From NCBI GenBank assembly GCA_905235045.1, contig CAJOJO010000014.1, positions 1 through 33,304 of the forward strand: a stretch of 33,304 nt of DNA, read 5' to 3'. Below are positions 14,203 through 33,304 of the stretch, one piece after another. Every line of letters begins with the position of its first letter. The stretch's first letter is position 1. Origin of the DNA: an uncultured Bacilli bacterium (GTDB lineage Bacteria; Bacillota_I; Bacilli_A; RF39; UBA660). A program made the position numbers and the translations under genes. The notes under the pieces were generated by a model. It did no database searches and was not told where the DNA came from. It saw nothing but the letters and a program-made list of their open reading frames with translations.

Positions 14203-14544
14203 ATGAGTGTAAAAATAGATAGATTAAATCATAATATTATAAAAGAAGTAAGCTATATTTTGATGCAAGAAGTAAAAGATGAAAACATTAAATTTGTGAC
14301 AATTACTGATTGCAAAACAACTAATGATTTAAGTTACGCAAAAATATATTTTACGGTTTTAGATGATACAAAAAAAGATATTACTTTAAAAGCTTTGGAT
14401 AATGCAAAAGGGTTTATTCGTAAAGAATTAGCTGAACGTATCGAAGTTAGGCATACACCAGAATTAGAATTTGTTTATGATGAATCAATTGATTATGGAA
14501 AAAGAATTGAAGAAAAATTGAAAGAATTGAATGATAAAAAATAA
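14203..14544 (+). CDS. rbfA: Ribosome-binding factor A
   Basis: RbfA binds helix 44/45 of 16S rRNA during late 30S maturation. The product of about 113 aa has the KH-like fold and signatures of the family: DRLNHNIIKEVSYILMQEV, FVTITDCKTTNDLSYAKIYF and the C-terminal RHTPELEFVYDESIDYG. ATG at 14203 is chosen because GGTGGTGAAG lies just before it; alternative GTG and TTG codons upstream fall inside the promoter and binding site. It is followed closely by deoC. Confidence 0.95.
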   Translation: MSVKIDRLNHNIIKEVSYILMQEVKDENIKFVTITDCKTTNDLSYAKIYFTVLDDTKKDITLKALDNAKGFIRKELAERIEVRHTPELEFVYDESIDYGKRIEEKLKELNDKK

Positions 14545-14553
14545 GGAGGATTT

Positions 14554-19572: not shown

Positions 19573-19947
19573 GGGGCTGTCCAGGTTTCGACAGGTATAT
19601 TTCGTTATAGATGGCAAGGAGTAGGAATACTATAAATTCAAAAGCAAATAAATGCTAAAAATGTTAAAAATGTATTAGCTTCAGTATTCAAAAGTAATGC
19701 TGTAGCATTTGCCTAATCATAGGATAATACAACTTTCTTTAATTCTTTTCCTGTGAGAGTTTTAGAAGGTTCATACTAGCAGGATATATTACTATGACTC
19801 CTTTAAGTAGTAATGAATATTTAAAGGATTACTAATTAAGTTGTTGTTGGTTACTTATTAATTAGGACATCTATTAATCAACTAACCTTGTAGAAATTTA
19901 TAATAGAGTATATTTGGACAGGAGTTCGATTCTCCTCAGCTCCACCA
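19573..19947 (+). ncRNA. ssrA: Transfer-messenger RNA (tmRNA)
   Basis: The 375-nt gene has the tRNA-Ala-like ends GGGGCTG and CAGCTCC with encoded CCA, and the T-arm GGAGTTCGATTCTCC. The tag frame is most likely 19654-19713, starting at GCT and followed by TAA. It encodes 20 residues, AKNVKNVLASVFKSNAVAFA. An ending in AFA rather than LAA is like that of Mollicutes tags. The gene lies after smpB and marks the left edge of the accessory island; its 3' end is a common integration site. Confidence 0.95.
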
Positions 19948-19958
19948 TAAGAAAAAAT

Positions 19959-19993
19959 CGTCGCACTAAATATAGTGTGACGTTTATTTTTAT
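19959..19993 (+). terminator. Terminator of ssrA
   Basis: An 8-bp stem CGTCGCAC/GTGTGACG (one G-T pair) with loop TAAATATA is followed by a T-rich tail. Confidence 0.8.
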
Positions 19994-20010
19994 AAATAAG
20001 CAAGCAACGT

Positions 20011-20029
20011 GGAATTGCTCCCACCATAA
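20011..20029 (+). repeat. Partial copy of the ssrA 3' end
   Basis: GCTCCCACCATAA repeats the end of ssrA plus its flank (GCTCCACCATAA at 19939-19950) with one extra C, 78 bp downstream. Such a copy is what an integration event at the tmRNA 3' end would leave (attR-like). No integrase gene is present nearby, so it would be a scar. Confidence 0.45.
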
Positions 20030-20045: not shown

Positions 20046-20663
20046 TTATAGTTTTTCACAAAGTATCACAATTTTTTTGTTGCTTAAAGATCCTTCTGTT
20101 CCTTTTTTATATGCAGAATATATAATATTAAAGTTATGCTTTTTTAATATGTTTGTGATTTCTTCTAGATTATAGTAATTTACAAACATTGATAAATTTT
20201 TATTAAGGGGTTCTTTAACCACTTTTTCTCCATCACCATCTTGTAATATAACTAGCATTTTTCCATTTTCTTTTAGCAAATTATAATATTTAGTAAGAAC
20301 TATTTCTACTTCCATTTTTGTAAGGTGAAATAACGAATATAGCAAACTGATTCCGTCAAATTGTTTATCTATATTAATCTCTCGCATATCCATTTTTTTA
20401 AATGTAATATGTTCATATTTTTGTTTTGCAATTTTTAACATCTTATCTGATAAATCAATGCCTATAACATTAAAACCATGTTCATTCATGTAATTAGTCA
20501 AATTCCCAAGACCACATCCTATATCTAATATTTCTTTACCATTTAAAGATTCAAGAAATTTGTCAATATAAGGTGCATCACTATAATCAGTTCCAAACTC
20601 ATTGTCATACTCACTTGCAATTAAATTATACGTATCAATAGCTAATTTATTTTTGTCATCCAT
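20046..20663 (-). CDS. Class I SAM-dependent methyltransferase
   Basis: The small-molecule-type methyltransferase has about 205 aa. Motif I is ILDIGCGLGNL, followed by motif II VIGIDLSDKMLKIAK and a later region LLYSLFHLTK. N-terminal DTYNLIASEYDNEF resembles UbiE/Methyltransf_25 enzymes. ATG 20663 is chosen because GGAG lies 7 nt upstream; a longer frame to 20708 would overlap the broken regulator gene. It is probably the second gene of a two-gene operon with that regulator. The substrate is unknown. Confidence 0.88.
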   Translation of the reverse strand: MDDKNKLAIDTYNLIASEYDNEFGTDYSDAPYIDKFLESLNGKEILDIGCGLGNLTNYMNEHGFNVIGIDLSDKMLKIAKQKYEHITFKKMDMREINIDKQFDGISLLYSLFHLTKMEVEIVLTKYYNLLKENGKMLVILQDGDGEKVVKEPLNKNLSMFVNYYNLEEITNILKKHNFNIIYSAYKKGTEGSLSNKKIVILCEKL

Positions 20664-20692
20664 AATATATCTCCATTCTTTTGTTATTTTTC

Positions 20693-22031
20693 CTATTTTA
20701 CTATCCATTCACCTTTTTTAGTAGCACCAGTTCTTTCAATATAATTATTGTCTATTAAGTACTTAATGTGATTTCTAATTGTCCTAGATGTTATTCCAAG
20801 TAAATTTGCCATTTCATCTTGAGTAATATTAGGTCGATCTAAAATTAAATAAAATTAAACTAATTATTCCTTTTTGAATATTATTTAATTCAGAATTAAA
20901 ATTATTTATTTCTTTTTTGTTATTAATTATATTGTCATACTCATATTCATTTTGATTATATTTAATACTTACTCTTATAAAATGTGGAAAGAAGTGATAA
21001 ATACTTTTATCATATTTTTTTAGAATTCTTCTTATACCAGTACCTAAATGTTCAACAAGTTCTAAATCTCTAAATACTCTCATTAATTCAGGGTTTTTAG
21101 GTGCCGAATAACCTTGTAAAAATTCTTCTTCAGTAAATTCACTTTGTATGCCACCAAATGATGATACTTCTAATCGATCATTAAAAAACTCAAATTTAGG
21201 TGGATACTCAGTAGTCCAATCGTTGTGAACTATAGCATTGATAACAACTTCTCTGACAGCAGTATAATCATACATTGGTTGTTCTAATCTTTCAGGATAT
21301 GAAATTTTAGCATAAATTTTATTTTCAGTTCTAAATTTTTCTAAAACCCTATATGTTGCTTTAACCAATGAACAATCTCCAAATTCATAATTTTCCATTA
21401 ATTCATCAACATCGTTTCCTGCATATTTTGCTACTTTAATTGAAACCCTATTATTATCAGCAAGAAGATATGCTACATAATTATATTTTCCATCCTTAGT
21501 ATAAAATTCTAGTTGTTTTTCAAAGTTATCACCAATATCAAAACCTTTTTCAGCATAGTATATTTTTAAATCAGTAAAAGTTAAATCTTGTCTTGGAGAA
21601 ATAATGTTTTTTAAAGAGTTTCTTGTTCTTTCTCTAAACATCTTATTTATTAAATGCTCATCCATCCTTTCATTAGAACTACCAACTCTAATAAAACAAC
21701 TATCAGGTGTCATTCCCATACCTTTAATATGATATGGTGTATCATAACCTTTGGCAATTGTTATTTTTAAGTATTTCTTATTATCTTTTTCCAATACTTC
21801 TAAATCAAATAAACCTAAAACAGATGGTTCAATACTTGATATTATCTTATCTTTAACTTTTCTTTGCAATAAATCCATATTATTTCTTAATCCAACTACA
21901 TTACCATTATCATCTATACCAATATAAATATTTCCACCATCTTTGTTTAAAAAAGCTATAACTGATTCTTCTAAATCATCAACTAATTTAACTTTAAATT
22001 CTGTTCTTGAATCTTCAATTATTCCTATCAT
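20693..22031 (-). pseudogene. AlbA_2/HATPase-type transcriptional regulator, frameshifted
   Basis: This is a gene of the RecG-C-terminal-like/AlbA_2 family. The N-terminal AlbA_2 module has ESVIAFLNKDGGNIYIGID, and a central ATPase-like part has VREVVINAIVHNDW. The frame ends at a premature stop (20829-20831) after a 10-bp tandem duplication at 20840-20859. Removing one copy restores the frame through ITQDEMANLLGITSRTIRNH and IERTGATKKGEW, a complete winged-helix C-terminus ending at 20693, about 442 aa in all. As read, the gene makes a 400-aa protein lacking the DNA-binding tail. Three operator-like repeats precede its promoter. Confidence 0.85.
20840..20859 (+). repeat. 10-bp tandem duplication causing a frameshift
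   Basis: TAAAATTAAA occurs twice in a row. With a single copy the regulator reads continuously into its C-terminal helix-turn-helix (SLILDRPNITQDEM). Confidence 0.85.
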
Positions 22032-22105: not shown

Positions 22106-22196
22106 TGTTAGAACTCACGTCAACAAAATGTCGCTATTGTTTCGCCATAATCATTTTCGAAGATATCTATTGTTATGGCACCAATGATGAATTATT
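22106..22196 (+). other. Intergenic stretch with a GCACCA element (module E2)
   Basis: The gap between the regulator and the MATE gene holds no recognisable gene. GCACCA (22178-22183) lies 13 nt before the TTCGAACTA hairpin that ends the module. No convincing promoter on the plus strand was found, unlike some of the other modules. Confidence 0.4.
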
Positions 22197-22220
22197 CGAA
22201 CTACAAGATAGTTCGTTTTT
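22197..22220 (+). terminator. Terminator of module E2
   Basis: Stem CGAACTA/TAGTTCG with loop CAAGA is followed by five T. Confidence 0.75.
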
Positions 22221-22298
22221 AATTACCTAATTTGTAGAAAAGATTATATTTAAACATCTAATTTTTTTAATAATTAAATATGAATGTACAGAGATTTT

Positions 22299-22307
22299 TG
22301 ATATAAT
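22299..22307 (+). promoter_or_regulatory. Extended -10 promoter of the MATE gene
   Basis: TGATATAAT lies 44 bp upstream of the start; no clear -35. Confidence 0.55.
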
Positions 22308-22351
22308 AAATGTATAACAATATTTAAATTATTAACAAGAAGGTGGTTTTA

Positions 22352-23617
22352 ATGAAGAAAGATATGAAAAAGCGAGTAATAAAGTCATTATTATTTGTAC
22401 TACCTTATATCATAGTTGAGTTTACTAATACATTTTTAATATTAATTGATAAATCTATTTCAAATTCAATTGGACAGACAGCACTTGTTGTTTTTTCATC
22501 ATTTATAACACTAAATTGGGCAATAAATACTTTACAAGCTTGTATAAGTTCCTCACACAGTATAGTATTGGTTAGAAATAAAAGTAATAATAAAGACATT
22601 AATACTTCTGGTTTGTTTTTGGAACTAATTTTTAGTTTGATTACAGGGTTATTACTTTTCTTTTTTGCAAGAAATATAACATATGTTTATCAATTAGATA
22701 ATGAAGCAAGAAATATATTAACAATAATTTTAAGGTTAAAAGCAATTCAACTTCCGCTTGTGGCAGTTGGGTATATAGCAAAAAACGATTTAAAAGTTAA
22801 AGAAAAAACAAATTTAATATTTACAATTGTTCTTATATCTTCAATAATTAATATATTTGGTGACATTATTAGTGTTAAGATGGGATATAATGAAATAGGA
22901 ATTTATATAGCAACTATTATTTCAACACTTGTTAATACTATATTGTTATTTATTGCATCTAAATTTAAAATTGGAAAAATAAGAAAGAACTATGTAAAAG
23001 AAATATTAAAATATGGAAAAGATCTTGCATTTAATAAAATTATACAAAGAGTTGTAAATATAACATATACTAGTATTGCCAGTTCTTATGGCACAGTAAT
23101 TTATACTATACATTGTGCTTGTATAACTGTTTCAGATACATTAAGTGAGGTTATTGCGGGTTATTATAATGGATTACTTATAGATTATTCAAATGATATA
23201 GAAAAAGAAAATAAAAATTTATTAAATAAAGTTGATTTCATTGAGATATATGGTACATTGATAGCAATTGTCTTTTTGATATTTATGATGTATCCATCTT
23301 GGTGGTTTTTAGCAAAAACAGTTCCTTGGGAAGATTGTAATCCATATATATGGTTTTATAGTATTGAATTTGTTATGGAGGTAGCATCAAGTAATTATAG
23401 AGCATATCTATCTGCAAATAAAGATACAAAAGCAATTAGAAATATGGCTTTGATTGGAGGAATATGTGTTAGAATCCCATTAGCATTTTTATTTAAAAAA
23501 CTTGGATTTGGTTTGTTGGGGCTTTCACTTTTATGTGGAATAGATAGAATTGTTAGATTAATTTACTTAAGAATATATATTAAGGTTAAATCTAAAAAAG
23601 GATTATTATATACATAA
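22352..23617 (+). CDS. MATE-family efflux transporter
   Basis: The 421-aa integral membrane protein has about twelve hydrophobic segments in the two six-helix halves of a MATE/MOP flippase-superfamily transporter. The N-terminus (SLLFVLPYIIVEFTNTFLIL) and the middle segment KEILKYGKDLAFNKIIQRV fit this superfamily. MATE proteins export drugs or metabolites using sodium or protons; the cargo here is unknown. ATG 22352 follows AAGGTGG; a GTG at 22343 lies inside that site. It stands alone between two GCACCA modules in the island. Confidence 0.82.
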   Translation: MKKDMKKRVIKSLLFVLPYIIVEFTNTFLILIDKSISNSIGQTALVVFSSFITLNWAINTLQACISSSHSIVLVRNKSNNKDINTSGLFLELIFSLITGLLLFFFARNITYVYQLDNEARNILTIILRLKAIQLPLVAVGYIAKNDLKVKEKTNLIFTIVLISSIINIFGDIISVKMGYNEIGIYIATIISTLVNTILLFIASKFKIGKIRKNYVKEILKYGKDLAFNKIIQRVVNITYTSIASSYGTVIYTIHCACITVSDTLSEVIAGYYNGLLIDYSNDIEKENKNLLNKVDFIEIYGTLIAIVFLIFMMYPSWWFLAKTVPWEDCNPYIWFYSIEFVMEVASSNYRAYLSANKDTKAIRNMALIGGICVRIPLAFLFKKLGFGLLGLSLLCGIDRIVRLIYLRIYIKVKSKKGLLYT

Positions 23618-23646
23618 AAAGTATTTTAATTAATATAAAATTGATG

Positions 23647-23799
23647 TATAATTATAGTAATGATTGATATAAATCAATCGTCTTTAGCGAGTGAGTTGTA
23701 AACCACTTCGTCGTTCGCACCATTGGGAAATCCGCTCGAACTTTTTATAAGCATCGAGAATAAATAGACAATCAATTCTAAATTAGGATTGATTTTTTT
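23647..23799 (+). ncRNA. Candidate small RNA/tRNA-3'-end-like module E3
   Basis: A TATAAT at 23647-23652 is followed by about 140 nt ending in a terminator (AATCAAT/ATTGATT plus seven T, 23770-23799). It begins with a GATTGAT/ATCAATC hairpin, then has a stem-loop around AGTTGTAAAC (GTG/CAC core). GCACCA follows at 23717-23722, and CGAAC lies 13 nt after it. Bases 23661-23723 nearly match module E6 at 29060-29119. No good reading frame is seen. It may be a small RNA, a decayed tRNA-like gene or an integration scar. Confidence 0.5.
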
Positions 23800-23840
23800 C
23801 TTGTTTAGAAAAAAGTCTTTCAAAGAAAGGATTGATTAAA

Positions 23841-24149
23841 ATGGTAAATATTATCAAGCTAGAAGCGATTAATTTAAGAGTTAAGACTTTAAACGATGCT
23901 ATTAAGGAAAAAGATAATGAAATATCATTTTTGAAATCTAAAATAAAAAATATACAAAATACTCTTGAATATTGGAAAGATAAATTTGAAAAACTAATAT
24001 CTTTCTTACACGATAAACTTCATAGTTGGTATGATAAAGATGATAAATATATTGATGTTGTTAATGATATGTATGAAGATAACGTTTTAGATGATGATGA
24101 CATTGAAGAATTAGATTTAAGTAAAGAAAATGATGATTATGAAAGATAA
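23841..24149 (+). CDS. C-terminal remnant of a MobV-type relaxase (102 aa)
   Basis: The product is a coiled coil (LNDAIKEKDNEISFLKSKIK) followed by YWKDKFEKLISFLHDKL and an acidic tail ending DDYER. This layout resembles the C-terminal end of MobV/Pre plasmid-mobilisation proteins, but the catalytic relaxase domain is missing. It has a usable start (ATG 23841, AAAGGA site), so it may still be translated. A shorter relative of the same tail lies at 27554-27631. The assignment rests on remembered family patterns, and an independent small coiled-coil protein is the alternative. Confidence 0.55.
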   Translation: MVNIIKLEAINLRVKTLNDAIKEKDNEISFLKSKIKNIQNTLEYWKDKFEKLISFLHDKLHSWYDKDDKYIDVVNDMYEDNVLDDDDIEELDLSKENDDYER

Positions 24150-24192
24150 TTAAGAAAAAAATGTAGTTTTTTGTTTCAATAATATAAAAGTA

Positions 24193-24201
24193 TGTTATAA
24201 T
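24193..24201 (+). promoter_or_regulatory. Extended -10 promoter of the radical SAM operon
   Basis: TGTTATAAT lies about 57 bp upstream of the first radical SAM ATG, giving a leader of about 50 nt. Confidence 0.6.
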
Positions 24202-24258
24202 AATACAAATAAACACGAGAAAGTTTTGGATAGGTTCCTGAAACGAGTTGAAGTAAAA

Positions 24259-25155
24259 ATGAAAAAAGATGAAATAATTTTAAAACCATGTTTAAATAAT
24301 ATATGTGGAAAAAGTTATAATTTATTAAATATTAAATTATTAAATGGCTGTAATGGTAAATGTACATTTTGCATAGCTGCTGGAACTCCATATAGAAAAT
24401 CAGCTGATGCAAAAAAATTCATTGATACCGCTAATTCAATGGAAAAATTTTTAAAAGTAGATGTTTTAGGTGGAGAACCAACATTATATCCAAATTTAGT
24501 TGAAGTATTAAAAGGAATTAGACCATATAAAAAAGAGATTAATATTATAAGTAATGGGTCTAATTTAGAAGCAATTAAAGAGAGTTTACCATATTTAGAT
24601 ACAATAACATTAAGTATTCATTCTTTTGATTATAATAAAAATTCAACTGGAGTAGTTATTGATGAAAAGGCCTTGAAAAATATAAATAAAAGTAAAGGTA
24701 ATGTTGAAACTATCGCAGCCGTAGTTGTCACAAAAGAAACAGTATCTAATTTAAAGGAAATAAAAGAATATGCAAAAAAGGCTAAAAAACTTGGCTTTTC
24801 TGCAATTAAATTAATGGAATTAGTTACATCAAACGAAAATATTGATTTTATTGATTTACAAGATTTGTTAGTACAATTTAAAATTCATCAAAAAAATGCT
24901 ACATTGAAAGGATGCTTCTTTGAATTACCAGAATTATCAAAATATTTAAAAATTAAAACTTATATAAAATTATGTTGCCCATACAATAATATTTTTAAAG
25001 CACGAAATTTTGGAATACCAAAAATTGAATATCAACATGATTATATGAATGTTATTCAACCAGATTGTTCAGTAACTGATAGTTGGATATATGATTCATT
25101 TGATAATAAAGTTTTGAATGGAGATGATTTAAATGTCAATTACCTTAAGAAGTAA
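24259..25155 (+). CDS. Radical SAM protein A
   Basis: Radical SAM enzymes use a [4Fe-4S] cluster to cleave S-adenosylmethionine. The 298-aa product has the cluster motif CNGKCTFC (C31, C35, C38), the SAM-binding LGGEPTLYP segment and a barrel like that of MoaA-type enzymes. The C-terminal region has scattered cysteines (GCFF, LCCP, PDCS) that could bind an auxiliary cluster but do not form a clear SPASM motif. The start is uncertain: ATG 24259 has only a weak GAAG site, and an in-frame TTG at 24226 is possible. It overlaps the paralogous gene B by 23 nt. Confidence 0.88.
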   Translation: MKKDEIILKPCLNNICGKSYNLLNIKLLNGCNGKCTFCIAAGTPYRKSADAKKFIDTANSMEKFLKVDVLGGEPTLYPNLVEVLKGIRPYKKEINIISNGSNLEAIKESLPYLDTITLSIHSFDYNKNSTGVVIDEKALKNINKSKGNVETIAAVVVTKETVSNLKEIKEYAKKAKKLGFSAIKLMELVTSNENIDFIDLQDLLVQFKIHQKNATLKGCFFELPELSKYLKIKTYIKLCCPYNNIFKARNFGIPKIEYQHDYMNVIQPDCSVTDSWIYDSFDNKVLNGDDLNVNYLKK

Positions 25156-26005
25156 AGAAAATTATTGTATGGGAAGAATGGGACCAAGATTATGTATTCA
25201 AACAACTACTGCATGTAATGGTAAATGTTTCTTCTGTGTAGGTAGATATAACATACCTTGTAAAGTAAATGTTGATGAAATTATTAAAAGTGCTATTTCA
25301 TTGGATAAGTATCCAGATGTACTTTTATTGGGCGGTGAATCTACACTTTTTCCTAAAGATTTAATAAAAATAATTAATAGTATTGCTCCATATAAAAGAA
25401 AAATTACTGTTAATACTAATGGTTATAATTTAGAATGTTTAACACCAGTTATAAAAAAATTAGACAAATTAATTGTTTCTGTTATGGGCAGCGAAGAAAT
25501 TAATGATAATATTGTTGGAGTCAAACCACAACTATATAAAATAAAAGAGTTTCACAAAGAAAATCCTAAACTTAAATTAAGAGTTAATTGTGTCGTAAAT
25601 AAAAGAGGTATTGATTCATTTGAAAAACTAGAAAAATTTGTTTTAGAAATGAAAGAAATAGGATTTACTTCAATAAAATTTTCAGAAATGTCAACAGATG
25701 ATCCTAATGATCCAAATTTTATTGATTTGCAAAAAATGTTATTACCATATTGTGATGACATTCATCAAAAAGATACTCTACAATATGGATGCTACTTAGA
25801 ACCCAAATCGTTAGAGAAAAAGTTTGGTATAAAAGTAATTTTAAATCTTACTTGTAACTTAAAAACACCAATTAAACAACCACAATATCAGTCACTAACT
25901 TATGAACCTATGTGTTTTGATAGCATTTATATTTCACCAGATGGTAGTATTCATAAAAGATTTGTATCAGAGCTTGATTTGGCTAATGAACGTGGAGCAT
26001 GTTAA
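25133..26005 (+). CDS. Radical SAM protein B (paralogue of A)
   Basis: The 290-aa radical SAM protein has cluster motif CNGKCFFC (C28, C32, C35) and the matching LGGESTLFP segment. It aligns with protein A over nearly its whole length: compare ISNGSNLE with VNTNGYNLE, and DFIDLQ with NFIDLQ. So the pair arose by duplication. It keeps a proper C-terminal segment, MCFDSIYISPDGSIHKRF, which in many radical SAM enzymes borders a SPASM-like region; A is different there. GGAG precedes the ATG inside gene A, so the two are translationally coupled and may act as a heterodimer. Confidence 0.88.
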   Translation: MSITLRSKENYCMGRMGPRLCIQTTTACNGKCFFCVGRYNIPCKVNVDEIIKSAISLDKYPDVLLLGGESTLFPKDLIKIINSIAPYKRKITVNTNGYNLECLTPVIKKLDKLIVSVMGSEEINDNIVGVKPQLYKIKEFHKENPKLKLRVNCVVNKRGIDSFEKLEKFVLEMKEIGFTSIKFSEMSTDDPNDPNFIDLQKMLLPYCDDIHQKDTLQYGCYLEPKSLEKKFGIKVILNLTCNLKTPIKQPQYQSLTYEPMCFDSIYISPDGSIHKRFVSELDLANERGAC

Positions 26006-26064
26006 ATTTTATAATTTTCTTTGTATGCTTCTATATAATTTTTTATCAAAATTATTAAAACTCA

Positions 26065-26073
26065 TGGTATAAT
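26065..26073 (+). promoter_or_regulatory. Extended -10 promoter of module E4
   Basis: TGGTATAAT lies 60 bp downstream of the radical SAM B stop and about 60 bp before the E4 hairpin, with no gene between. Confidence 0.5.
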
Positions 26074-26079
26074 GATTAT

Positions 26080-26162
26080 AGAATTTAATTATTTATTTGT
26101 TGTGATGTTAACTATCGCACCAGATTGATACCAAACTCGAACTTTTATTAGTTCGAGTTTTA
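26080..26162 (+). ncRNA. Candidate short transcript, module E4
   Basis: Between a -10 box and a terminator there is room for an RNA of about 80 nt. It contains GCACCA (26117-26122) and ends with the 11-bp hairpin AAACTCGAACT/AGTTCGAGTTT (26133-26160), followed by a weak T run. No reading frame is visible. It shares the GCACCA-hairpin plan of the other island modules. Confidence 0.4.
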
Positions 26163-26177
26163 AAATACTTAAAATTA

Positions 26178-26186
26178 TGTTATAAT
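26178..26186 (+). promoter_or_regulatory. Extended -10 promoter of the HD gene
   Basis: TGTTATAAT lies 89 bp before the start. The leader that follows is long for this genome and holds two hairpins. Confidence 0.6.
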
Positions 26187-26200
26187 AACTATCAACTTTT

Positions 26201-26253
26201 AAATTGAATTATGTCAATTTAGAAACACACTTGCATAATGACATAGTCATTAT
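26201..26253 (+). promoter_or_regulatory. Two-hairpin leader of the HD gene
   Basis: Hairpin 1 is AAATTGA/TCAATTT (26201-26220). Hairpin 2 is the perfect 8-bp stem ATAATGAC/GTCATTAT (26235-26253), which ends 8 nt before the TGAGGTGA ribosome binding region. As RNA they could affect translation; as DNA, hairpin 2 is a palindromic operator candidate. Confidence 0.45.
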
Positions 26254-26275
26254 AGATATATGAGGTGAAAATAAT

Positions 26276-27403
26276 ATGTTGGTAGAACAATATGGAACTA
26301 TGACAAAAGAAGATGCTGATCCAAGATTAGAGCGTTATATTCAAACAAAAACAATGCAAAGGCTTAAAGGAAAAGGTGTATTTTGTGGAATGGATTATGT
26401 AAATATTCAGAAATTAAAACCTATAGAATTTTATTCTAGATTGGAACATTCAAAAAATGTTGCATATTCTGCTTCATCTCTATACAAAGATGAAAGAAAT
26501 AAGTTTTTAAAAATTGCATTGGCAGGTTTATTTCATGACGTTGGTACAAAATGTTTTGCTCATGCTAATTCTTTTAAAACAGGCGATATATTAAAACAAG
26601 AAAGTGATGAATTAGATGTAAAAAGCATTTTATTACAAGATGAAGAATTAATTACATATCTTCATGAAGATGGAATAAATTTAGAAGATGTAATTGATTA
26701 TTCAAAATATCCAATACTTGATAAACCAATTCCTGCACTTTGTATGGATAGATTAGATGGTGGTATATTAGGAACTTGTTTGTTTTGGGCACATACTCAT
26801 TCTTTTGAAGAAATAAAAGAGTTATGGGCAATGGTAGGATATTTAGAAAATACTAATGGTATGTGTGTCGATTTATTAAGTGAAAGATGTAGAAACTTTG
26901 TTGGAGAAATGGTTCTATCAGAAAGTTCACATACCGCATGGTTCGAAGATTTTTTTAAAGCAATAAATATTTATAGTAGTTTACTACTCTCAAAAGAAAG
27001 TAGATATATGATGGAAGTTTTGGGACTTACACTAAATTACTATGAAGATAAAGGTGTTATTAATGAACAATCTATGTTTTATTTAAGTGAACAAGAAATT
27101 ATTGAACAAATATTAAATAGCAATTATAAAGATGTATGGGAAGATATTACATCATTTGATACAGTTAGTTATGCTAAAAGTATGGATGAAGGATTAGCAT
27201 TTATTTCTCAACCTAAAATAAGACAATGTAATCCTTTAATTATTGATTCTCATTTAAATTTATGTGAAATAGATGGTATAGCTGGTGACTTTTATAGAGA
27301 GTTAAATCCTATTGGAGAAGATATAAATCTTACTTGTATGCCAATAACAGGTAATTTAAGTAAATATACTGTAAAAACATTATCAAAATATAAAAAAAGA
27401 TAA
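26276..27403 (+). CDS. HD-domain phosphohydrolase (SAMHD1/YwfO-like)
   Basis: The 375-aa product carries the metal-binding HD set in order: RLEHSKNVAY (H58), LFHDVG (H87, D88), a further histidine in FAHANSF (H96) and MDRLDG (D158). This order, and the DRLD motif, match the YwfO/SAMHD1/dGTPase branch of HD phosphohydrolases, which often hydrolyse dNTPs. The C-terminal half is unassigned. It follows the dual radical SAM genes but has its own promoter and leader. A nucleotide-depletion defence role or a nucleotide-processing step in a pathway are both possible. Confidence 0.82.
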   Translation: MLVEQYGTMTKEDADPRLERYIQTKTMQRLKGKGVFCGMDYVNIQKLKPIEFYSRLEHSKNVAYSASSLYKDERNKFLKIALAGLFHDVGTKCFAHANSFKTGDILKQESDELDVKSILLQDEELITYLHEDGINLEDVIDYSKYPILDKPIPALCMDRLDGGILGTCLFWAHTHSFEEIKELWAMVGYLENTNGMCVDLLSERCRNFVGEMVLSESSHTAWFEDFFKAINIYSSLLLSKESRYMMEVLGLTLNYYEDKGVINEQSMFYLSEQEIIEQILNSNYKDVWEDITSFDTVSYAKSMDEGLAFISQPKIRQCNPLIIDSHLNLCEIDGIAGDFYRELNPIGEDINLTCMPITGNLSKYTVKTLSKYKKR

Positions 27404-27436
27404 TTTTTTAAAAGTTGTTGTACTTCTTCCTTCAGG

Positions 27437-27508
27437 GCACCAGTGACGAATCTGTTCGAACTATTCGAACTTAAATATAGATATCAATCAGAAATGATTG
27501 ATTTTTTT
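27437..27508 (+). repeat. Module E5: copy of the tRNA-Thr 3' flank plus terminator
   Basis: GCACCA is followed after 11 nt by GTTCGAACTATTCGAAC, exactly the spacing and sequence found downstream of tRNA-Thr (32784-32817). The upstream bases AGTTG...TTCAGG look like a worn tRNA T-arm and acceptor end. It ends with a terminator, TCAATCA/TGATTGA with loop GAAA and seven T (27484-27508). It looks like a direct repeat left by integration or duplication at a tRNA gene. Confidence 0.6.
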
Positions 27509-27553
27509 GCTGTATCAGAAAATCATAGAGAGGGTGGAAGTTTTTATTTATAA

Positions 27554-27631
27554 AAGGAATTTATAGACGAAAAAGAATATACTAGTGCTATTAATAAGAA
27601 AGAAAAAAACAAGGATGATTATGAGAGATAA
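27554..27631 (+). pseudogene. MobV relaxase C-terminal tail remnant
   Basis: The frame reads FIDEKEYTSAINKKEKNK and ends DDYER before a stop, with no start codon. It ends in the same residues as the 102-aa protein at 23841-24149 and resembles the end of MobV proteins. It sits just downstream of module E5, as the other remnant sits downstream of module E3. Confidence 0.5.
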
Positions 27632-27648
27632 TAAGATTATATATTTTT

Positions 27649-27735
27649 ATGAATTATGATATAATATTTATAACTTATTTAGTAGAAGATAAAAATACTG
27701 ATAAATTATTTACCTATTTTATCAATAAATTATAA
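27649..27735 (+). other. Short reading frame (28 aa) before the MFS gene, doubtful
   Basis: An ATG frame (MNYDIIFITYLVEDKNTDKL...) overlaps the extended -10 TGATATAAT of the MFS gene (27657-27665) and has no ribosome binding site. It could be a decayed gene fragment; translation is unlikely. The rest of 27632-27779 holds nothing else recognised. Confidence 0.25.
27657..27665 (+). promoter_or_regulatory. Extended -10 promoter of the MFS gene
   Basis: TGATATAAT, about 115 bp upstream of the start; no clear -35. Confidence 0.45.
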
Positions 27736-27779
27736 GAAAGCATTTGAAAAAATAATTAATAGTAAAGAAGGTGTATTAT

Positions 27780-29003
27780 ATGGATAACTCAAAAGATAAA
27801 CGTATTAAACTTAGCAATAAAATTTATCCAATTTTTTATGGACTTTCATCAGACTTGATTTTTTTCATTGCGATTAATACATTATTTTTAACAAATGTTA
27901 AGGGATTAACTTCTTCTGAAATTAATTTTATGACAACAATTGGTGTTTTAGTAGCACTAGTATTTTATTTGTTATCACATAAGATTATAAATAAAATAGG
28001 AAATTTATATTCAATAAGGTTAGGAACTTTATTATTATTAATATCTGCATTACTTTTTACTTTTTCCACTAATTTAATATTCTTTGTTTTGGCAGAAATT
28101 TTTTATGAAGTAGGTTTTGTTTTTAAGTGTGTTGATCAGGTGGTTTTAAATAATAATTTAATATACCAAAATAAAGAAAATGATTTTATAAAAATAAAGA
28201 CTAAAGCAACAACAATATATTCAATTACAACTATGATTGCTACTTTAATTGCAGGATTTTTATTTAATATTAGTCCATATTTACCAATGTTTATATGTAT
28301 ATTAATATGTTTTAATAATTTTATAATGTCACATTATATATATGAGGTTAATTTTGATAATAAAGAATTAGAATTAAAGAAAAAGCATAAATTTAATTTT
28401 AATAAAATTATGATTATAACTATACTTGTTTATGGCTTAATATATGGGACTCTTGTCGTTTGTCAAACAAATGATAAACTATTTATACAATATGAATTAC
28501 AAGATTTCTTAAAAAGTAATAGCGTAACTTTAGTAATGTCAATTATTTTATTTTTATCTCGAGTATCAAGACTAATATTAAATTTAATATTTGGAAAAAT
28601 ATATGATAAATTTAAAAACAAAACGTTATATATAATTTATTTTGGATTATTAATTTCAGTTTTATTATTTGTTATTGGAAAAATATTTTTTACATCTATG
28701 TATAGTTCTATTATAATGGCTGTTGGTTTTATTCTTTTATTAGCATTAAGAGATCCAACAGAAAATTTATTAAGTGATATCCTTCTTAAAAATACTAATA
28801 AAGAAGATAAAGAAAAGGCAATATTGTATTTTCAATTTACAAGAAGGTTAGTTGTGTTTATACTAAGTTTACTTGCAACTATGATTCTTGTTAGATATGA
28901 ATTAATCCATTTATACCTAGTATTTTTGATTTTTATACTATTATATATATTCATGGTTTTAAAATTATTATCGTTGCTAAATAATCAAAATAAAATAGAT
29001 TAA
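27780..29003 (+). CDS. MFS-type transporter
   Basis: The 407-aa integral membrane protein has about twelve hydrophobic segments and a central basic loop near KKKHKFNFNK. The first half contains a loop 2-3 region SHKIINKIGNLYSIRLG and the second half FGKIYDKFKNKTLY, both versions of the MFS loop motif (GxxxDRxGRR-like). The substrate is unknown. ATG 27780 follows GAAGGTG. It lies between module E5 and module E6 as a one-gene unit. Confidence 0.82.
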   Translation: MDNSKDKRIKLSNKIYPIFYGLSSDLIFFIAINTLFLTNVKGLTSSEINFMTTIGVLVALVFYLLSHKIINKIGNLYSIRLGTLLLLISALLFTFSTNLIFFVLAEIFYEVGFVFKCVDQVVLNNNLIYQNKENDFIKIKTKATTIYSITTMIATLIAGFLFNISPYLPMFICILICFNNFIMSHYIYEVNFDNKELELKKKHKFNFNKIMIITILVYGLIYGTLVVCQTNDKLFIQYELQDFLKSNSVTLVMSIILFLSRVSRLILNLIFGKIYDKFKNKTLYIIYFGLLISVLLFVIGKIFFTSMYSSIIMAVGFILLLALRDPTENLLSDILLKNTNKEDKEKAILYFQFTRRLVVFILSLLATMILVRYELIHLYLVFLIFILLYIFMVLKLLSLLNNQNKID

Positions 29004-29043
29004 GAGTAGTGATAAAGTTATTGCTACTTTTTCTATTCTTTGG

Positions 29044-29190
29044 TAAAATGAATATAGTGATTGATATAAATGGTCGTCTTTTGCGGGTGAGTTGTAAACC
29101 ACTTCGTCGTTCGCACCATTAAAGAATATGGTTGAACTTTGGTTCAATTTACTAATAAACATCAATTCTAGAAATAGAATTGATTTTTTG
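29044..29190 (+). ncRNA. Candidate small RNA/tRNA-3'-end-like module E6
   Basis: TGGTAAAAT (29041-29049) serves as an extended -10. The body of about 135 nt nearly repeats module E3 up to GCACCA (29113-29118). A TTGAAC/GTTCAA hairpin (29132-29147) follows, then a strong terminator with 10-bp stem ATCAATTCTA/TAGAATTGAT and loop GAAA (29161-29189). The loop stem around AGTTGTAAAC is kept despite one base change (GCGAGTG to GCGGGTG) that still allows a G-U pair. The rest of the gap (29191-29270) holds only a CTAACAA/TTGTTAG hairpin. Confidence 0.5.
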
Positions 29191-29267
29191 TTAAAATATC
29201 TAACAAAATTACGTTGTTAGCTGGTTAATAATAAATTTTAAATTATATAGACTTTATATATAATATA

Positions 29268-29276
29268 TGCTATAAT
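29268..29276 (+). promoter_or_regulatory. Extended -10 promoter of the 225-aa gene
   Basis: TGCTATAAT lies 23 bp before the start, giving a very short leader that begins near the AAGGAAGTG site. Confidence 0.55.
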
Positions 29277-29299
29277 ACTCAGCTAAGGAAGTGAATATT

Positions 29300-29977
29300 A
29301 TGTTATACGAAAAAGATGGTTGTAAATTTATAGATGTTAATATTGAATTTATTGAGGAGTATCTTTCAAATAATTCAAGTATTTTATTAAAACCATATAT
29401 AAATGGAAAAATAAGTTATATAAAATATGATAATGATGGTCATCCAAAATATGGTTTTATAAAATCTAAAGAAATTGTACCTTTTGAACACGATTTTTGT
29501 ATAGATATTGAAAAGAATAATTATGATCCAATTTTTATGGAAATGTTTACACGTGGTAAAACACCTGTTGAATCAGATAATTGTTTTTTATTTGGTAAGT
29601 TTAGCAATATAACTGATAAAGAAAATATAGCAAAGATATTTTTTTCTGGTGAAAGAGTTTTATCATTTTTGCCTGAATTTGTTGATGAATTTTATTATTA
29701 TTGTGGATTGCAAATAAAAAAAGAAAATAATAAATATTTTTCTTCATTAATTAAGAAGTATTTTACTTATGAAATAGATGATTACCATGATATTACTTAT
29801 TTAACAGGAGATGGTAATGATTTAAAAAGTAGTTTAGATTCTTTAGAACAACAAATCAATATATATAGTTCTGATAAAATAATAAACCTATTAGCTAAAA
29901 AGTATAATGAAACTGATTTGAGATTTAACTTTGAAGAGCAAAAAAAGATATTATCTTTAACAAGAAAACATAGATAA
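29300..29977 (+). CDS. Unknown protein (225 aa)
   Basis: No family is recognised. The product is soluble, acidic and rich in aromatic residues (FVDEFYYYCGL). Its N-terminal part (LLKPYINGKISYIKYDNDG) suggests a small beta domain, and its C-terminus is helical and basic. No membrane segment or metal motif is seen. ATG 29300 is used with AAGGAAG upstream; a GTG at 29291 falls in the same site. It is a single-gene unit between module E6 and a 7-bp long-range hairpin at 29986-30028. Confidence 0.7.
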   Translation: MLYEKDGCKFIDVNIEFIEEYLSNNSSILLKPYINGKISYIKYDNDGHPKYGFIKSKEIVPFEHDFCIDIEKNNYDPIFMEMFTRGKTPVESDNCFLFGKFSNITDKENIAKIFFSGERVLSFLPEFVDEFYYYCGLQIKKENNKYFSSLIKKYFTYEIDDYHDITYLTGDGNDLKSSLDSLEQQINIYSSDKIINLLAKKYNETDLRFNFEEQKKILSLTRKHR

Positions 29978-29985
29978 TTTCGACA

Positions 29986-30028
29986 CCAGCACTATACTAA
30001 AACAAACCATTTGAATCAGTCGTGTTGG
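29986..30028 (+). other. Long-loop hairpin between genes
   Basis: CCAGCAC (29986-29992) can pair with GTGTTGG (30022-30028) across a loop of about 29 nt. The left arm contains ACACCA, similar to the GCACCA of the other modules, but there is no TTCGAAC and no T run. Confidence 0.3.
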
Positions 30029-30068
30029 CTATTAAAAAAAGAATATGATGAATGTAAGCATATTTTAG

Positions 30069-30077
30069 TGATATAAT
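30069..30077 (+). promoter_or_regulatory. Extended -10 promoter of the guanine deaminase gene
   Basis: TGATATAAT ends 15 bp before the ATG; a GGTGG site lies between, so the leader is very short. Confidence 0.6.
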
Positions 30078-30092
30078 ATAAATGGTGGTTAT

Positions 30093-30554
30093 ATGAATGA
30101 ATATATGAAATTAGCTAATGAACTAGCTAGAGAAAACTTAGAAACAAATAATGGTGGTCCATTCGGAGCTTGTATTGTAAAAGATGGAAAAATTATTGGA
30201 AAAGGTAATAATCATGTTTTAGGTAACAATGATCCAACTGCGCATGCCGAAATAATGGCAATTCGAAATGCTTGTCAAAATCTTAAAACCTACGATTTAA
30301 CAGGATGTGAACTTTATACTTCATGCTATCCTTGTCCAATGTGTTTATCGGCAATTATTTGGGCTAATATAAAAAAAGTTTATTATGGAAATACAAAAGA
30401 AGATGCTGCTAATATTGGATTTAGGGACGAATTAATTTATGAATTTATTAAAAATCCTAATAATAAAGTATTAGATTTAGAAAACATTGATCATAATAAA
30501 ACAATTGAAGTATTCAAGGAATTTAATAGTAAAGATGATAAAAAAATATATTAA
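30093..30554 (+). CDS. guaD: Guanine deaminase (GuaD-like nucleoside deaminase)
   Basis: The CDA-fold zinc enzyme of 153 aa has HAEIMAI (H51, E53) and SCYPCPMC (C81, C84), the N-terminal GGPFGACIVKDG, and a C-terminal GFRDELIYEF. Length and the last two segments match Bacillus GuaD, which deaminates guanine to xanthine, better than TadA, which edits tRNA. A second cytidine/guanine-type deaminase in the window is the dCMP deaminase at 11488. It is within the island, but with its own promoter. Confidence 0.87.
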   Translation: MNEYMKLANELARENLETNNGGPFGACIVKDGKIIGKGNNHVLGNNDPTAHAEIMAIRNACQNLKTYDLTGCELYTSCYPCPMCLSAIIWANIKKVYYGNTKEDAANIGFRDELIYEFIKNPNNKVLDLENIDHNKTIEVFKEFNSKDDKKIY

Positions 30555-30567
30555 TAATTAATTTATA

Positions 30568-30576
30568 TGTTATAAT
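30568..30576 (+). promoter_or_regulatory. Extended -10 promoter of the 337-aa gene
   Basis: TGTTATAAT lies 23 bp before the start, followed by a CAGGAGG site. Confidence 0.6.
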
Positions 30577-30599
30577 ATGTAGTGCAGGAGGTAATTGGT

Positions 30600-31613
30600 A
30601 TGGAAAGTGAAATAAGGGTTGAGGTATTAAAGGCATTAGCAAATATAATCGATAACTTTCATAATTTTAATAGTGCTGTTATCGAATTATTTAATAGTGA
30701 ATATCCTAAAAATTTAACGGCACCACTTGATTTAGGGTGTGATATTAGTGAATATATCGAAGGTAAAAGAATAGTTGGACATAAAAAATTGAAAGAATTT
30801 TGTGAATTATATAAAACTACTATTGAAGAAATAAGTAAGTATACATGGATTGGGGACTTTATGTATAGTTATGATTTTAATAGAAAGACAAAAAAGTTAG
30901 AATTAAATGATAATTTAGAATATTTTTATCAATATTTATATGCTAATAAAAAAGACATTGATAAAATAAATGTTTTATTAGATAAAATTGATTCGTTAAA
31001 TATTAGTAGATTGATATTAGACCCTAATTTGGATTTAGATATTTTAGATGGAAATGTATTCTCAATAGAGACAATATTTAATGATAATTATAATTTTACT
31101 TATTTTGATAATATAGAAATAATTCCAAATTATGAAAAAGGTATTGTTAAATATAAATCAAAAAAATCAAATTATGCATTACAAATAAATTCTGGTGTTT
31201 GGGATAAAAAAGTGCTAGTAGTTGATTCTTTAACTTTTGATCCAAATGTATTACCACTTACTAGTGATAAAAATGAGTTGTCCACTTTAATTCTTGAAAT
31301 GCAAAATAAAAATCTTGATGCTTGTGAAAACGTTAGAAATGCGGTTGATTTAAGTGTTGGTGTTGATGACTTAGTTGAACAATATAATAAAATTAAAAAA
31401 GTTGTTAACAATATTACTGATTATAGTGATCGCGAAAAAGTTTATAAATCACTTGTAAATTTAAATGAGTGTATTAAATTACTTTCTAAAACAAGTGAAA
31501 ACTATAACCAAAGAGTAGCTGAAAGTAATCCAAAAATTACTGAAAAAACTTTAGAAAAAGAGAAAAAACAATATTTAAAAAGAAGATATTGGAGTAATTT
31601 TGATTTAGATTAA
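30600..31613 (+). CDS. Unknown protein (337 aa)
   Basis: No family is recognised. The soluble, acidic protein starts with a helical part (EVLKALANIIDNFHNFNSAV) and has a central beta-rich part around YNFTYFDNIEIIP. It ends in a long helical, coiled-coil-like region (VEQYNKIKKVVNNITDY) with a basic tail KKQYLKRRYWSNF. No catalytic motif is evident. ATG 30600 has an AGGAGG site. It has its own promoter and terminator. Confidence 0.7.
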   Translation: MESEIRVEVLKALANIIDNFHNFNSAVIELFNSEYPKNLTAPLDLGCDISEYIEGKRIVGHKKLKEFCELYKTTIEEISKYTWIGDFMYSYDFNRKTKKLELNDNLEYFYQYLYANKKDIDKINVLLDKIDSLNISRLILDPNLDLDILDGNVFSIETIFNDNYNFTYFDNIEIIPNYEKGIVKYKSKKSNYALQINSGVWDKKVLVVDSLTFDPNVLPLTSDKNELSTLILEMQNKNLDACENVRNAVDLSVGVDDLVEQYNKIKKVVNNITDYSDREKVYKSLVNLNECIKLLSKTSENYNQRVAESNPKITEKTLEKEKKQYLKRRYWSNFDLD

Positions 31614-31633
31614 AAGCAATATTGCTTTTTTTC
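31612..31633 (+). terminator. Terminator after the 337-aa gene
   Basis: AAAAGCAAT/ATTGCTTTT is a perfect palindrome that overlaps the stop codon and runs into a T tract. Confidence 0.75.
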
Positions 31634-31683
31634 TTGTAAAGTTACATTAAATATGTTATTATATAGCGCAATGAGGTGATAAT

Positions 31684-32292
31684 GTGAATTCATGTATAAT
31701 AAATAAGTATGCAGAAATTATTGAAACAAGAAGAAAAATAGAAAATGAAATTAATGAATTAGAACAAGATGAAAAAATTAAAAGATATTTATCTTTAAAA
31801 GAAGAAAATAAACACTTATCAGATGAGCAATCATATTTGTATAGAAGAGTAAAAATGAATGAATATCAAAAATGTAATCATATTTGGGTAAATTCAAAGA
31901 TTATTTACAATGATATGATGAATAACGCAATTACAAGATGCGGATGTATTAAATGTGGATTAGATCAAAGTGTTACTGATCGTCAAAGAGGATGGCTTAC
32001 TTTTGATGAACAAGTTATGTATGACTTTTTAACTCAAAATCCAACAAATATTAATATTGGTACTGATACTGATATTAATTGCGATTTATCACTAGCTAAG
32101 GCTATTTATAAAAGAATAGATGAAAAAAAACATAATGCTAGTGCAATAGACAAAATTAAGTATTTAGAATATGCGTTATATAAAATAAGAGATAGTAAAG
32201 TAACAGACGAAAGAAAAAATAACAGAATAAAAAGGTTAGGACTAAAAAAGTGTTTTCGTAGATGGGATAGTTCTGATGTTTGGAGTAGTTAA
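31684..32292 (+). CDS. Unknown protein with a Cys/His cluster (202 aa)
   Basis: The N-terminal third is a coiled coil (ETRRKIENEINELEQDEK). A CNHIW segment and CGCIKCG follow, about 25 residues apart, which could form a small zinc-binding site. The C-terminal part is helical and basic. No family is recognised. The start is GTG 31684: GAGGTGAT lies just upstream, and the nearby ATG at 31682 is out of frame and followed at once by a stop. Confidence 0.7.
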   Translation: MNSCIINKYAEIIETRRKIENEINELEQDEKIKRYLSLKEENKHLSDEQSYLYRRVKMNEYQKCNHIWVNSKIIYNDMMNNAITRCGCIKCGLDQSVTDRQRGWLTFDEQVMYDFLTQNPTNINIGTDTDINCDLSLAKAIYKRIDEKKHNASAIDKIKYLEYALYKIRDSKVTDERKNNRIKRLGLKKCFRRWDSSDVWSS

Positions 32293-32310
32293 AATTTAAC
32301 TACTTTTTTC
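32285..32310 (+). terminator. Terminator after the 202-aa gene
   Basis: A stem AGTAGTTAAA/TTTAACTACT with a tight loop overlaps the stop codon and is followed by TTTTTT. Confidence 0.75.
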
Positions 32311-32322
32311 ATATGCTTTAGT

Positions 32323-32691
32323 ATGGAAGAACGTTTAAAAGAAATAAAAATAGAAAATGAAATATGGGTCATTTACATTGGAATTATTATCTTAAGTTGG
32401 ATAGCTAATAGTAAAGAAAAAAAATATATTTTATATACTGATTTAGAAAGTAAAAAAGAATATCAAGAATTACTTATTCTTATTTTTAGTATTTTATTAT
32501 TAGTATATTATTATTTCTTTAATGATAGTTACAAAAGTTTAAAATCATTAAATCAATATGATAGTCAAAAAAAGAAAACATTAACATATGCTTCTTTTAT
32601 TGGTTCACTATTAATTTTAATAAGTGGCGTTATTTTTTTAGGAATTGCTTTAACAGATGATAATATTGATACAGAGATTGCTTTTAATTAG
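32323..32691 (+). CDS. Unknown membrane protein (122 aa, three TM segments)
   Basis: The small integral membrane protein has hydrophobic segments at about residues 14-27, 48-65 and 88-109, with basic loops between (SKEKKY, DSQKKKT). It starts 13 nt after a terminator, with no recognisable ribosome binding site, so it may be leaderless or poorly translated. No characterised family is recognised. The tRNA-Thr promoter starts inside its last codons. Confidence 0.7.
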   Translation: MEERLKEIKIENEIWVIYIGIIILSWIANSKEKKYILYTDLESKKEYQELLILIFSILLLVYYYFFNDSYKSLKSLNQYDSQKKKTLTYASFIGSLLILISGVIFLGIALTDDNIDTEIAFN

Positions 32692-32706
32692 AAGTATTGA
32701 TATAAT
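32678..32706 (+). promoter_or_regulatory. Promoter of tRNA-Thr
   Basis: TTGCTT (32678-32683) and TATAAT (32701-32706) are separated by 17 bp, ten bases before the tRNA. Confidence 0.75.
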
Positions 32707-32715
32707 AGTTTTGTT

Positions 32716-32789
32716 GCCACCTTAGTTAAGTGGTATAACAAAGCCATGGTAAGGCTTAGTTGCAAGTTCGATTCTTGCAGGTGGCACCA
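32716..32789 (+). tRNA. tRNA-Thr (anticodon GGT)
   Basis: A complete cloverleaf is present. The acceptor stem GCCACCT pairs with AGGTGGC. The D arm is GTTA/TAAC, and the anticodon stem AAGCC/GGCTT encloses loop ATGGTAA (anticodon GGT). The T arm is GCAAG/CTTGC with loop TTCGATT, and CCA is encoded (74 nt). It marks the right edge of the accessory island. Its downstream flank is repeated at module E5. Confidence 0.95.
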
Positions 32790-32800
32790 CTTAAGAATCT

Positions 32801-32856
32801 GTTCGAACTATTCGAACTTTAAATATATTTTTAGTCTGAAATATGACTAATTTTTT
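32801..32856 (+). terminator. Downstream hairpins of tRNA-Thr (module E7)
   Basis: GTTCGA/TCGAAC with loop ACTAT (32801-32817) is followed by a second hairpin TTAGTC/GACTAA and six T (32831-32856). The first hairpin and its 11-nt spacing from GCACCA are identical to module E5. Confidence 0.75.
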
Positions 32857-33154: not shown

Positions 33155-33304
33155 ATGGATAAATTAATTATGATTAAATATGGTGAATTAACAACAAAAA
33201 AAGCCAATCGTAATTTATTTGTTAATTTATTATATAAAAATATTACTAAAAAATTAGAAAACTATAATATTAATATTACTAAAGATAGAGTTCGTATGTA
33301 CATT
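33155..33304 (+). CDS. thiI: tRNA 4-thiouridine synthase ThiI (partial, 5' end)
   Basis: The first 50 codons of the gene are in the window. The product begins MDKLIMIKYGELTTKKANRN, which matches the N-terminal ferredoxin-like domain of ThiI (compare the common IRYGELxLKGxNR). ThiI makes s4U8 in tRNA and, in some species, thiazole for thiamine. The reading frame is open to the window end. Confidence 0.85.
   Translation, partial: MDKLIMIKYGELTTKKANRNLFVNLLYKNITKKLENYNINITKDRVRMYI

Follow-up and report, generated by a model that had tools for sequence, protein, structure and literature searches.

What is the nature of the short modules, each consisting of GCACCA, a spacer and an inverted repeat built on TTCGAAC or a close variant, which recur between the accessory genes of an uncultured Bacilli bacterium (RF39; UBA660; assembly GCA_905235045.1, contig CAJOJO010000014.1)? 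The window, by which we mean the whole analysed stretch of 33,304 nucleotides, belongs to an assembled genome of 884 kb that is 78% complete. With high confidence we propose that each module is a junction of attachment sites, at which one mobile element ends with its left arm and, across the core CCA, its neighbour begins with its right arm; the elements would stand in tandem behind the transfer-messenger RNA (tmRNA) gene and be mobilised by large serine recombinases (LSRs) that target tRNA ends. What the window contains is best described as a tmRNA-anchored accretion array of about five non-autonomous cassettes.

The first-pass annotation of this DNA had placed GCACCA at 22178, 23717, 26117, 27437, 29113 and 32784, and all six positions were verified. 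The shared plan was confirmed as well, although the spacer, described there as 8-13 nt, measured 11-13 nt with the exception of 10 nt at 22178. The terminator reported close behind the modules was recovered in part: a strict scan detected one at 22197 (and one behind the tmRNA, at 19959) and the module at 26117 folds well, while the other modules gave no such support. The pattern GCACCA-N7-16-YTYGAACT occurs five times in the whole own genome, always in the island and on one strand, and its reversed control does not occur; the module at 29113 carries GGTTGAACT and is hence missed by this strict pattern. In the same family the pattern was present in 84 of 145 genomes, with almost no occurrence of the reversed control, and in a class-wide sample 14/31 genomes from the own family had it, compared with 5/216 from other families. 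A chance origin is ruled out by the clustering in the own genome together with the reversed-pattern controls. An RNA element was also rejected, since Rfam gave no match at the modules and, apart from the true tRNA-Thr, only the module at 26117 clearly surpassed its shuffled versions in folding (z -7.8). Acceptor-stem-like mini-tRNAs, noticed by eye in the left arms at 22178 and 23717, were not general and were dropped.

The module at 32784 is indeed the genuine end of a tRNA-Thr gene. The others share the core only, and their left flanks have no T-loop 18 nt upstream, therefore they are not tRNA fragments. Thus the scattering of tRNA 3' ends, one of the two earlier readings, had to be given up in favour of left-arm/core/right-arm junctions, while the other, a cassette array whose junctions mimic a tRNA end, is retained, with serial integrations apparently occurring at the tmRNA 3' end. 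That end (19942-19947), absent from the first-pass annotation, is the anchor of the array and has its own right arm of another class (TAAGAAAAAATCGTCGCAC).

The anatomy of the junctions can be read from the relatives. The sequence to the right of the core (N11-13, then TTCGAAC or CTCGAAC) immediately follows genuine tRNA genes (for Thr, Leu, Arg, Gly, Trp, Phe and Cys) and tmRNA genes, and the same right-arm sequence also follows recurrent left arms that are not tRNA. The repeating plan is tRNA-CCA-right arm-cargo-left arm-GCACCA-right arm-cargo-left arm. Several arms of the window (right arms R0 to R5 and left arms L0 to L4 in Table 1) have counterparts elsewhere: the class of R0 is also found behind the tmRNA in locus L240 and ahead of a diverged LSR in L234, arms 83-92% identical to R1 occur in genome G122, the class of L1 recurs in G122 and L151, that of R3 stands behind tRNA-Thr, tRNA-Leu and tmRNA, and L3 recurs in L038, L045, L050 and others. 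Among 32 elements the left and right arms of the same element covaried (r=0.43, p=1e-4), the arms meeting at a junction less so (r=0.17, p=0.004).

The enzyme at these sites is an LSR. The LSR sequence was the only query used to retrieve loci from 84,980 genomes (80 named loci), the sources being metagenome-assembled genomes of gut Bacilli and Clostridia, Candidatus Onthousia, Pelethosoma and Faecimonas. In complete elements the gene of a 90-aa protein and a 550-680-aa LSR lie 500-650 bp behind the tRNA, and the Mob_Pre relaxase gene comes next. When the loci were pooled, at least 1300 bp of upstream sequence was required and a gene was scored if it lay no more than 1300 bp behind the 3' end of a tRNA or tmRNA on its own strand, 56/68 LSRs of this subfamily were positive as opposed to 3/261 other large open reading frames (ORFs) of the same loci (p=2e-47); other LSRs of the same genomes gave 0/25 within a shorter upstream stretch. 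Six of the 12 exceptions follow a CCA with a right arm. LSR identity was strongly correlated with right-arm identity (Mantel r=0.74, p=1e-4) and not with sharing the same tRNA isotype (r=0.05, p=0.11). Most likely, therefore, the enzyme has its own site in the right arm, and it would hardly matter which tRNA is involved.

The LSRs have the domains PF00239, PF07508 and PF13408 (Resolvase N-domain, Recombinase domain and zinc ribbon), the Ser of the RVST motif and Cys 285/288/310/313 are invariant across 21 sequences, and the proteins match the TP901-1, SPbeta YokA and A118/LI integrase structures. No phage or plasmid relative above about 34% identity over half the protein appeared among the best matches. 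Mob_Pre (PF01076) was detected in 5/5 complete relatives tested, which also possess the LSR, so that they combine the integrase and the relaxase of integrative mobilizable elements (IMEs). The own genome has one such LSR element adjoining tRNA-Trp on another contig (L135), and the window itself is devoid of LSR. The 90-aa partner is conserved in 64/68 elements (L135:4539-4826 and relatives); it belongs to no Pfam, NCBIfam or PHROG family and had no fold match despite a confident model (pLDDT 90.5), consequently its identification as a known directionality factor was discarded, and we regard it as a candidate directionality or accessory factor. As a separate observation, locus L265 of genome G145 carries a different LSR (591 aa) and a 95-aa ORF behind tRNA-Gly (14502-14576, reverse-complement numbering) with an unrelated arm, TTTGAAATCATAGTACGTCAGAGATGACGTAC; tRNA-end targeting may thus extend beyond the subfamily studied here.

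Variation within the genus could be followed at the tmRNA locus, where the order rnr-smpB-tmRNA is common to the own genome (G000), G122 and G145, and is found in G006 too. In G145 the tmRNA is followed by a plain terminator without an arm. As far as the last tmRNA base, G122 has 92% identity to G145. From a conserved downstream gene onward the two are syntenic again; this gene lies about 0.3 kb away in the armless G145 and 9.7 kb away in G122, where three cassettes follow the tmRNA, with a left arm, CTCCACCA and a terminator-like hairpin closing the last of them. The window and G122 have arms in common and no cargo genes in common. In line with the expectation that the copies cluster at variable gene junctions, the sites lie in one variable region, and within the genus they are lacking in G145 and exchanged for other cassettes in G122. 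Moreover, genera that share about 70-75% identity in their smpB-tmRNA DNA have element DNA which is 94-97% identical. We regard the array as real and mobile.

Four elements of the window possess both arms (MATE; fusion ORF with two radical SAM genes; HD protein; MFS), and two of them show how they arose. The first 149 bp of element 2 (23717-23865) are 94-97% identical to complete elements in the stretch from the right arm into the 90-aa gene, and the next 340 bp (23862-24202) match the end of their relaxase gene with 87-90%; in L196 the two stretches are 3.6 kb apart, and the intervening 3.6 kb with the LSR is missing from the window. The label "mob tail", given to this remnant in the first-pass annotation, was therefore well chosen. 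The same type of scar is present in element 4 (27437-27537 and 27543-27642, compared with L151). Judged by these matches, elements 2 and 4 are internal-deletion derivatives, composed of right arm, lost LSR, Mob_Pre tail, cargo and left arm. Since only relaxase tails and neither integrase nor relaxase remain in the window cassettes, they are not IMEs and should be classed as cis-mobilizable derivatives, the term "cis-mobilizable elements" (CIMEs) being in use for such LSR-less cassettes (PMC5704250).

The following mechanism would account for these data. Complete members of the family, as seen in the relatives, are IMEs with the order right arm, 90-aa gene, LSR, Mob_Pre relaxase, cargo and left arm. 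The LSR would catalyse recombination between a circle, joined as left arm-CC(A)-right arm, and the CCA end of a tRNA or tmRNA gene, after which the tRNA would bear the right arm of the element and the displaced DNA would follow the left arm; the tRNA would stay intact, and the right arm would often supply a new terminator. A later element could enter at the same CCA and so produce the left-core-right junctions. The window cassettes, having lost the LSR and kept their arms and cargo, would depend on trans-mobilisation by an LSR elsewhere, for example that at tRNA-Trp in the own genome. As regards the point of exchange, the left arm of the L160 element reads GCACCA in a tRNA-Gly whose target is GCTCCA, therefore the exchange probably takes place at the two final C of the tRNA or behind them; the cases are few, and other left arms at CTCCA targets do read CTCCA (L192, L197). 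Some left arms (left ends of L212, L192 and L197) finish in GCTCCA instead of GCACCA, as if the base before CCA recorded the tRNA type previously occupied.

The spacing of the motifs permits a further step. The GTT of the T-loop lies 18 nt from CC in 223/225 tRNAs; its mirror-image AAC in the right arms is mostly 17-18 nt from CC, and the GTT of the left arms 22-23 nt, the left-minus-right difference being exactly 5 bp in most scorable pairs. In the LI integrase system the zinc-ribbon motif of attB is 5 bp nearer to the crossover than that of attP (PMC3783163). From these spacings we infer that the right arm and the T-arm of the tRNA might be B-type half-sites and the left arm a P-type half-site, so that after insertion two B-type halves would meet at the tRNA and the next element would again find a full target there. 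Worded as a general rule, the LSRs would read a geometry shared by all tRNAs (T-loop motif 18 nt from an encoded CC), which would make any tRNA or tmRNA gene targetable; the right arm would be an inverted copy of the tRNA half-site, each insertion would create a complete symmetric attB, and arrays next to the tRNA could go on growing, the same pair of site types being present on either side of the reaction, in an integron-like, recombinase-driven, tRNA-anchored cassette system. This rule is put forward tentatively, with a little under an even chance of being correct.

Several points weigh against the picture of LSR-made junctions and half-sites. All the evidence is comparative and no recombination was observed. 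No before/after pair was found in which the two flanks were conserved precisely, down to the single base, since the native flank of G122 differs from that of G145: the boundary at the tmRNA end, though not the base at the far end, can be taken from this pair. Neither was an exact empty site obtained via G081 and tRNA-Trp, where the flanks were not conserved or carried other arms. The arms that meet at a junction also covary, if weakly, and the excess of LSR elements next to the tRNA was not significant (11/21 against 2/11, p=0.066). The half-sites were typed from motif spacing only, the 5-bp difference does not hold in all pairs, and as the right arms resemble intrinsic terminators, their spacing could partly reflect terminator function. 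In the window the class of L0 had no match among the other loci, L2 looks like a truncated form of the arm of L046, no left arm closing the array was detected past R5, and none downstream of tRNA-Thr or on the continuation contig C36.

Among the competing explanations, the one that survives best accepts an LSR-made island and supposes that the cassettes of the window arrived together, in a single composite block, instead of one after another. For other IMEs and CIMEs it has been documented that accreted elements can be transferred as composites (PMC5704250), and successive right arms are weakly correlated; nevertheless arms of several classes alternate in the window, and G122 shares with it single arm types without any cargo gene, hence we consider the block unlikely. 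It is very improbable that the right arms are native terminators of tRNA genes and their non-tRNA copies decayed tRNA genes, with no mobile element involved. Although several arms are hairpins with T-tails and all tRNA-linked arms start immediately after CCA, the arms follow LSR phylogeny rather than tRNA isotype, they run on into element-specific DNA up to 97% identical between genera, the non-tRNA copies have recurrent left arms lacking a T-loop, and the tmRNA terminator of G145 is unrelated. A classic tyrosine-integrase island, of the tDNA-fragment or tycheposon-like type, in which serial integrations leave tRNA 3' fragments, would explain the location at tRNA and tmRNA 3' ends, the partial repeats of that end and the accessory genes. 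We give it hardly any credence, because the repeated core is only CCA/CACCA without a T-arm fragment and no tyrosine recombinase motif was seen among the ORFs of the annotated arrays; the tyrosine recombinase that the first-pass annotation would have sought elsewhere in the genome is represented by two PF00589 hits, both on other contigs, and LSRs occupy the sites instead (L135 at tRNA-Trp). An integron-like system, with the tRNA end as a fixed attI, the arms as attC-type sites and one integrase collecting cassettes for expression, has next to no chance despite the one- to three-gene cassettes each followed by a site, the same orientation of all four window cassettes and the anchoring at one end, as there is no IntI, cassette genes elsewhere point both ways (L035 171 aa, L051 168 aa), complete elements carry their own LSR and relaxase, and the arms by eye lack the GTTRRRY/RYYYAAC pair of attC sites.

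Table 1. Features of the tmRNA-anchored array in the window.
Feature	Position	Strand	Basis or match
tmRNA gene, the target to which the array is anchored; first junction at its 3' CCA	19573..19947	+	ARAGORN/Rfam
Right arm R0 of the tmRNA-proximal element (TAAGAAAAAATCGTCGCAC..), doubling as terminator 19959-19982	19948..20022	+	
Element 0 cargo: methyltransferase (20046-20708) and Schlafen/AlbA-ATPase protein (20829-22031)	20046..22031	-	Pfam
Left arm L0 and core GCACCA (22178)	22145..22183	+	sequence
Right arm R1 (ATGATGAATTATTCGAACT..), terminator hairpin 22197-22215	22184..22220	+	
Element 1 cargo: MATE-like transporter	22343..23617	+	Pfam/NCBIfam
Left arm L1 (GAGTTGTAAACCACTTCGTCGTTC) and core GCACCA (23717)	23690..23722	+	GTT 22 nt from CC
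Right arm R2 and leader	23723..23831	+	94-97% identical to right arm of LSR elements L046, L196
105-aa fusion ORF, with its first codons from the 90-aa partner gene and its C-terminus from the Mob_Pre relaxase	23832..24149	+	
Element 2 cargo: two radical SAM proteins (24226-25155 and 25133-26005)	24226..26005	+	Pfam
Left arm L2 and core GCACCA (26117)	26086..26122	+	
Right arm R3 (GATTGATACCAAACTCGAACTTTTATTAGTTCGAGTTTT), also a strong hairpin	26123..26165	+	fold z -7.8
Element 3 cargo: HD-domain protein, weak match	26276..27403	+	Pfam HD E=3e-4, just below cut-off
Left arm L3 (AGTTGTTGTACTTCTTCCTTCAGG) and core GCACCA (27437)	27410..27442	+	
Right arm R4 and leader	27443..27537	+	85-88% identical to right arms of LSR elements L151, L220
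Relaxase gene 3'-end remnant, second internal-deletion scar	27543..27642	+	85% identical to L151:3293-3194, Mob_Pre gene end
Element 4 cargo: MFS transporter	27771..29003	+	Pfam
Left arm L4 and core GCACCA (29113)	29086..29118	+	85% identical to L1 across 67-nt direct repeat
Right arm R5 (TTAAAGAATATGGTTGAACTTTGGTTCAA)	29119..29195	+	94% identical to arm directly on G122 tmRNA
Genes past R5: 228-aa ORF, deaminase, 343-, 202- and 122-aa ORFs	29291..32691	+	
tRNA-Thr(ggt) with class-A right arm 32790-32830 behind its CCA	32716..32830	+	ARAGORN; arm match

The 105-aa fusion ORF of element 2 is evidently the scar left by the loss of the LSR and the N-terminal part of the relaxase. The radical SAM pair of the same element (24226-26005) gave weak prokaryotic viperin matches (67 and 45 bits, PADLOC), far below the NCBIfam cut-off; a defence or a peptide-modification pair is possible. 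The Schlafen/AlbA-ATPase gene (20829-22031) has a paralogue with 69% identical DNA elsewhere in G000 (G000:C39:2971-4044), and G006 contains a relative. The 122-aa ORF before tRNA-Thr (32323-32691) shows 72.5% DNA identity to an ORF of a tmRNA-side contig in G110 (L048:7143-7498), and from this match part of the region 29291-32691 may likewise be mobile. Behind tRNA-Thr, the lone right arm would be a remnant or a partial element. The last 99 bases of the window (33206-33304) are identical to the start of contig G000:C36, where thiI continues, therefore the end of the window is an assembly break and not a biological end.

Similar behaviour is known from other systems. The ssrA islands of Dehalococcoides (DsiB/DsiA; PMC3146451) have an LSR-type recombinase, stand in tandem behind the tmRNA, often lack the integration module and contain arrays of cargo. 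They were described with a 20-bp direct repeat, an inferred T-loop insertion, a CcrB-like DsiB with a small DsiA, a six-gene module and the tmRNA as the only target (PMC3146451), whereas here we found a CCA core, many tRNA isotypes and one LSR with a 90-aa partner and a Mob_Pre relaxase. A 20-bp tmRNA repeat from the T-loop onward is not present, the core being CCA/CACCA and the left arms having no T-loop sequence. The staphylococcal cassette chromosome elements (SCC/SCCmec, with CcrA/CcrB/CcrC) are also LSR cassettes that accrete in tandem at a regenerated target end and include recombinase-less elements, but their target is the end of a protein gene: instead of the rlmH (orfX) 3' end we found tRNA and tmRNA ends in 56/68 cases, and our LSR reached 131.6 bits with the CcrB model, the cut-off of which is 900. 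The serine-integrase IMEs and CIMEs of Firmicutes (Tn4451/TnpX type; PMC5704250) resemble the present elements in the association of LSR and relaxase, the very short core repeats, the accretion and the decay to cis-mobilizable elements, and according to the same review only tyrosine integrases use tRNA ends, the reported site-specific serine IMEs disrupting protein genes. The tDNA islands of the Islander class (PMC4383910) likewise occupy tRNA and tmRNA 3' ends and leave the gene intact, but they employ tyrosine recombinases with a duplicated tDNA fragment, a combination not seen here, and serine integrases were described as not targeting tRNA genes (PMC4383910). Similarly, IntI with attC/attI was not found: the annotated arrays contain no tyrosine recombinase motif, and LSRs are at the sites. 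No paper describing this LSR family was found in the open-access literature. The array behaves like SCC or the Dehalococcoides ssrA islands, yet it is a distinct variant.

The whole LSR subfamily appears to target tRNA ends, across at least nine tRNA isotypes and tmRNA, and an arm plus CCA would offer a marker for element ends in fragmented metagenome assemblies. If the reading of the T-arm and CCA is true, it would explain how one enzyme family can use any tRNA, it would provide LSRs with a target present in nearly every bacterial genome, and it would give a simple rule for the entry of accessory genes into small gut-bacterial genomes.

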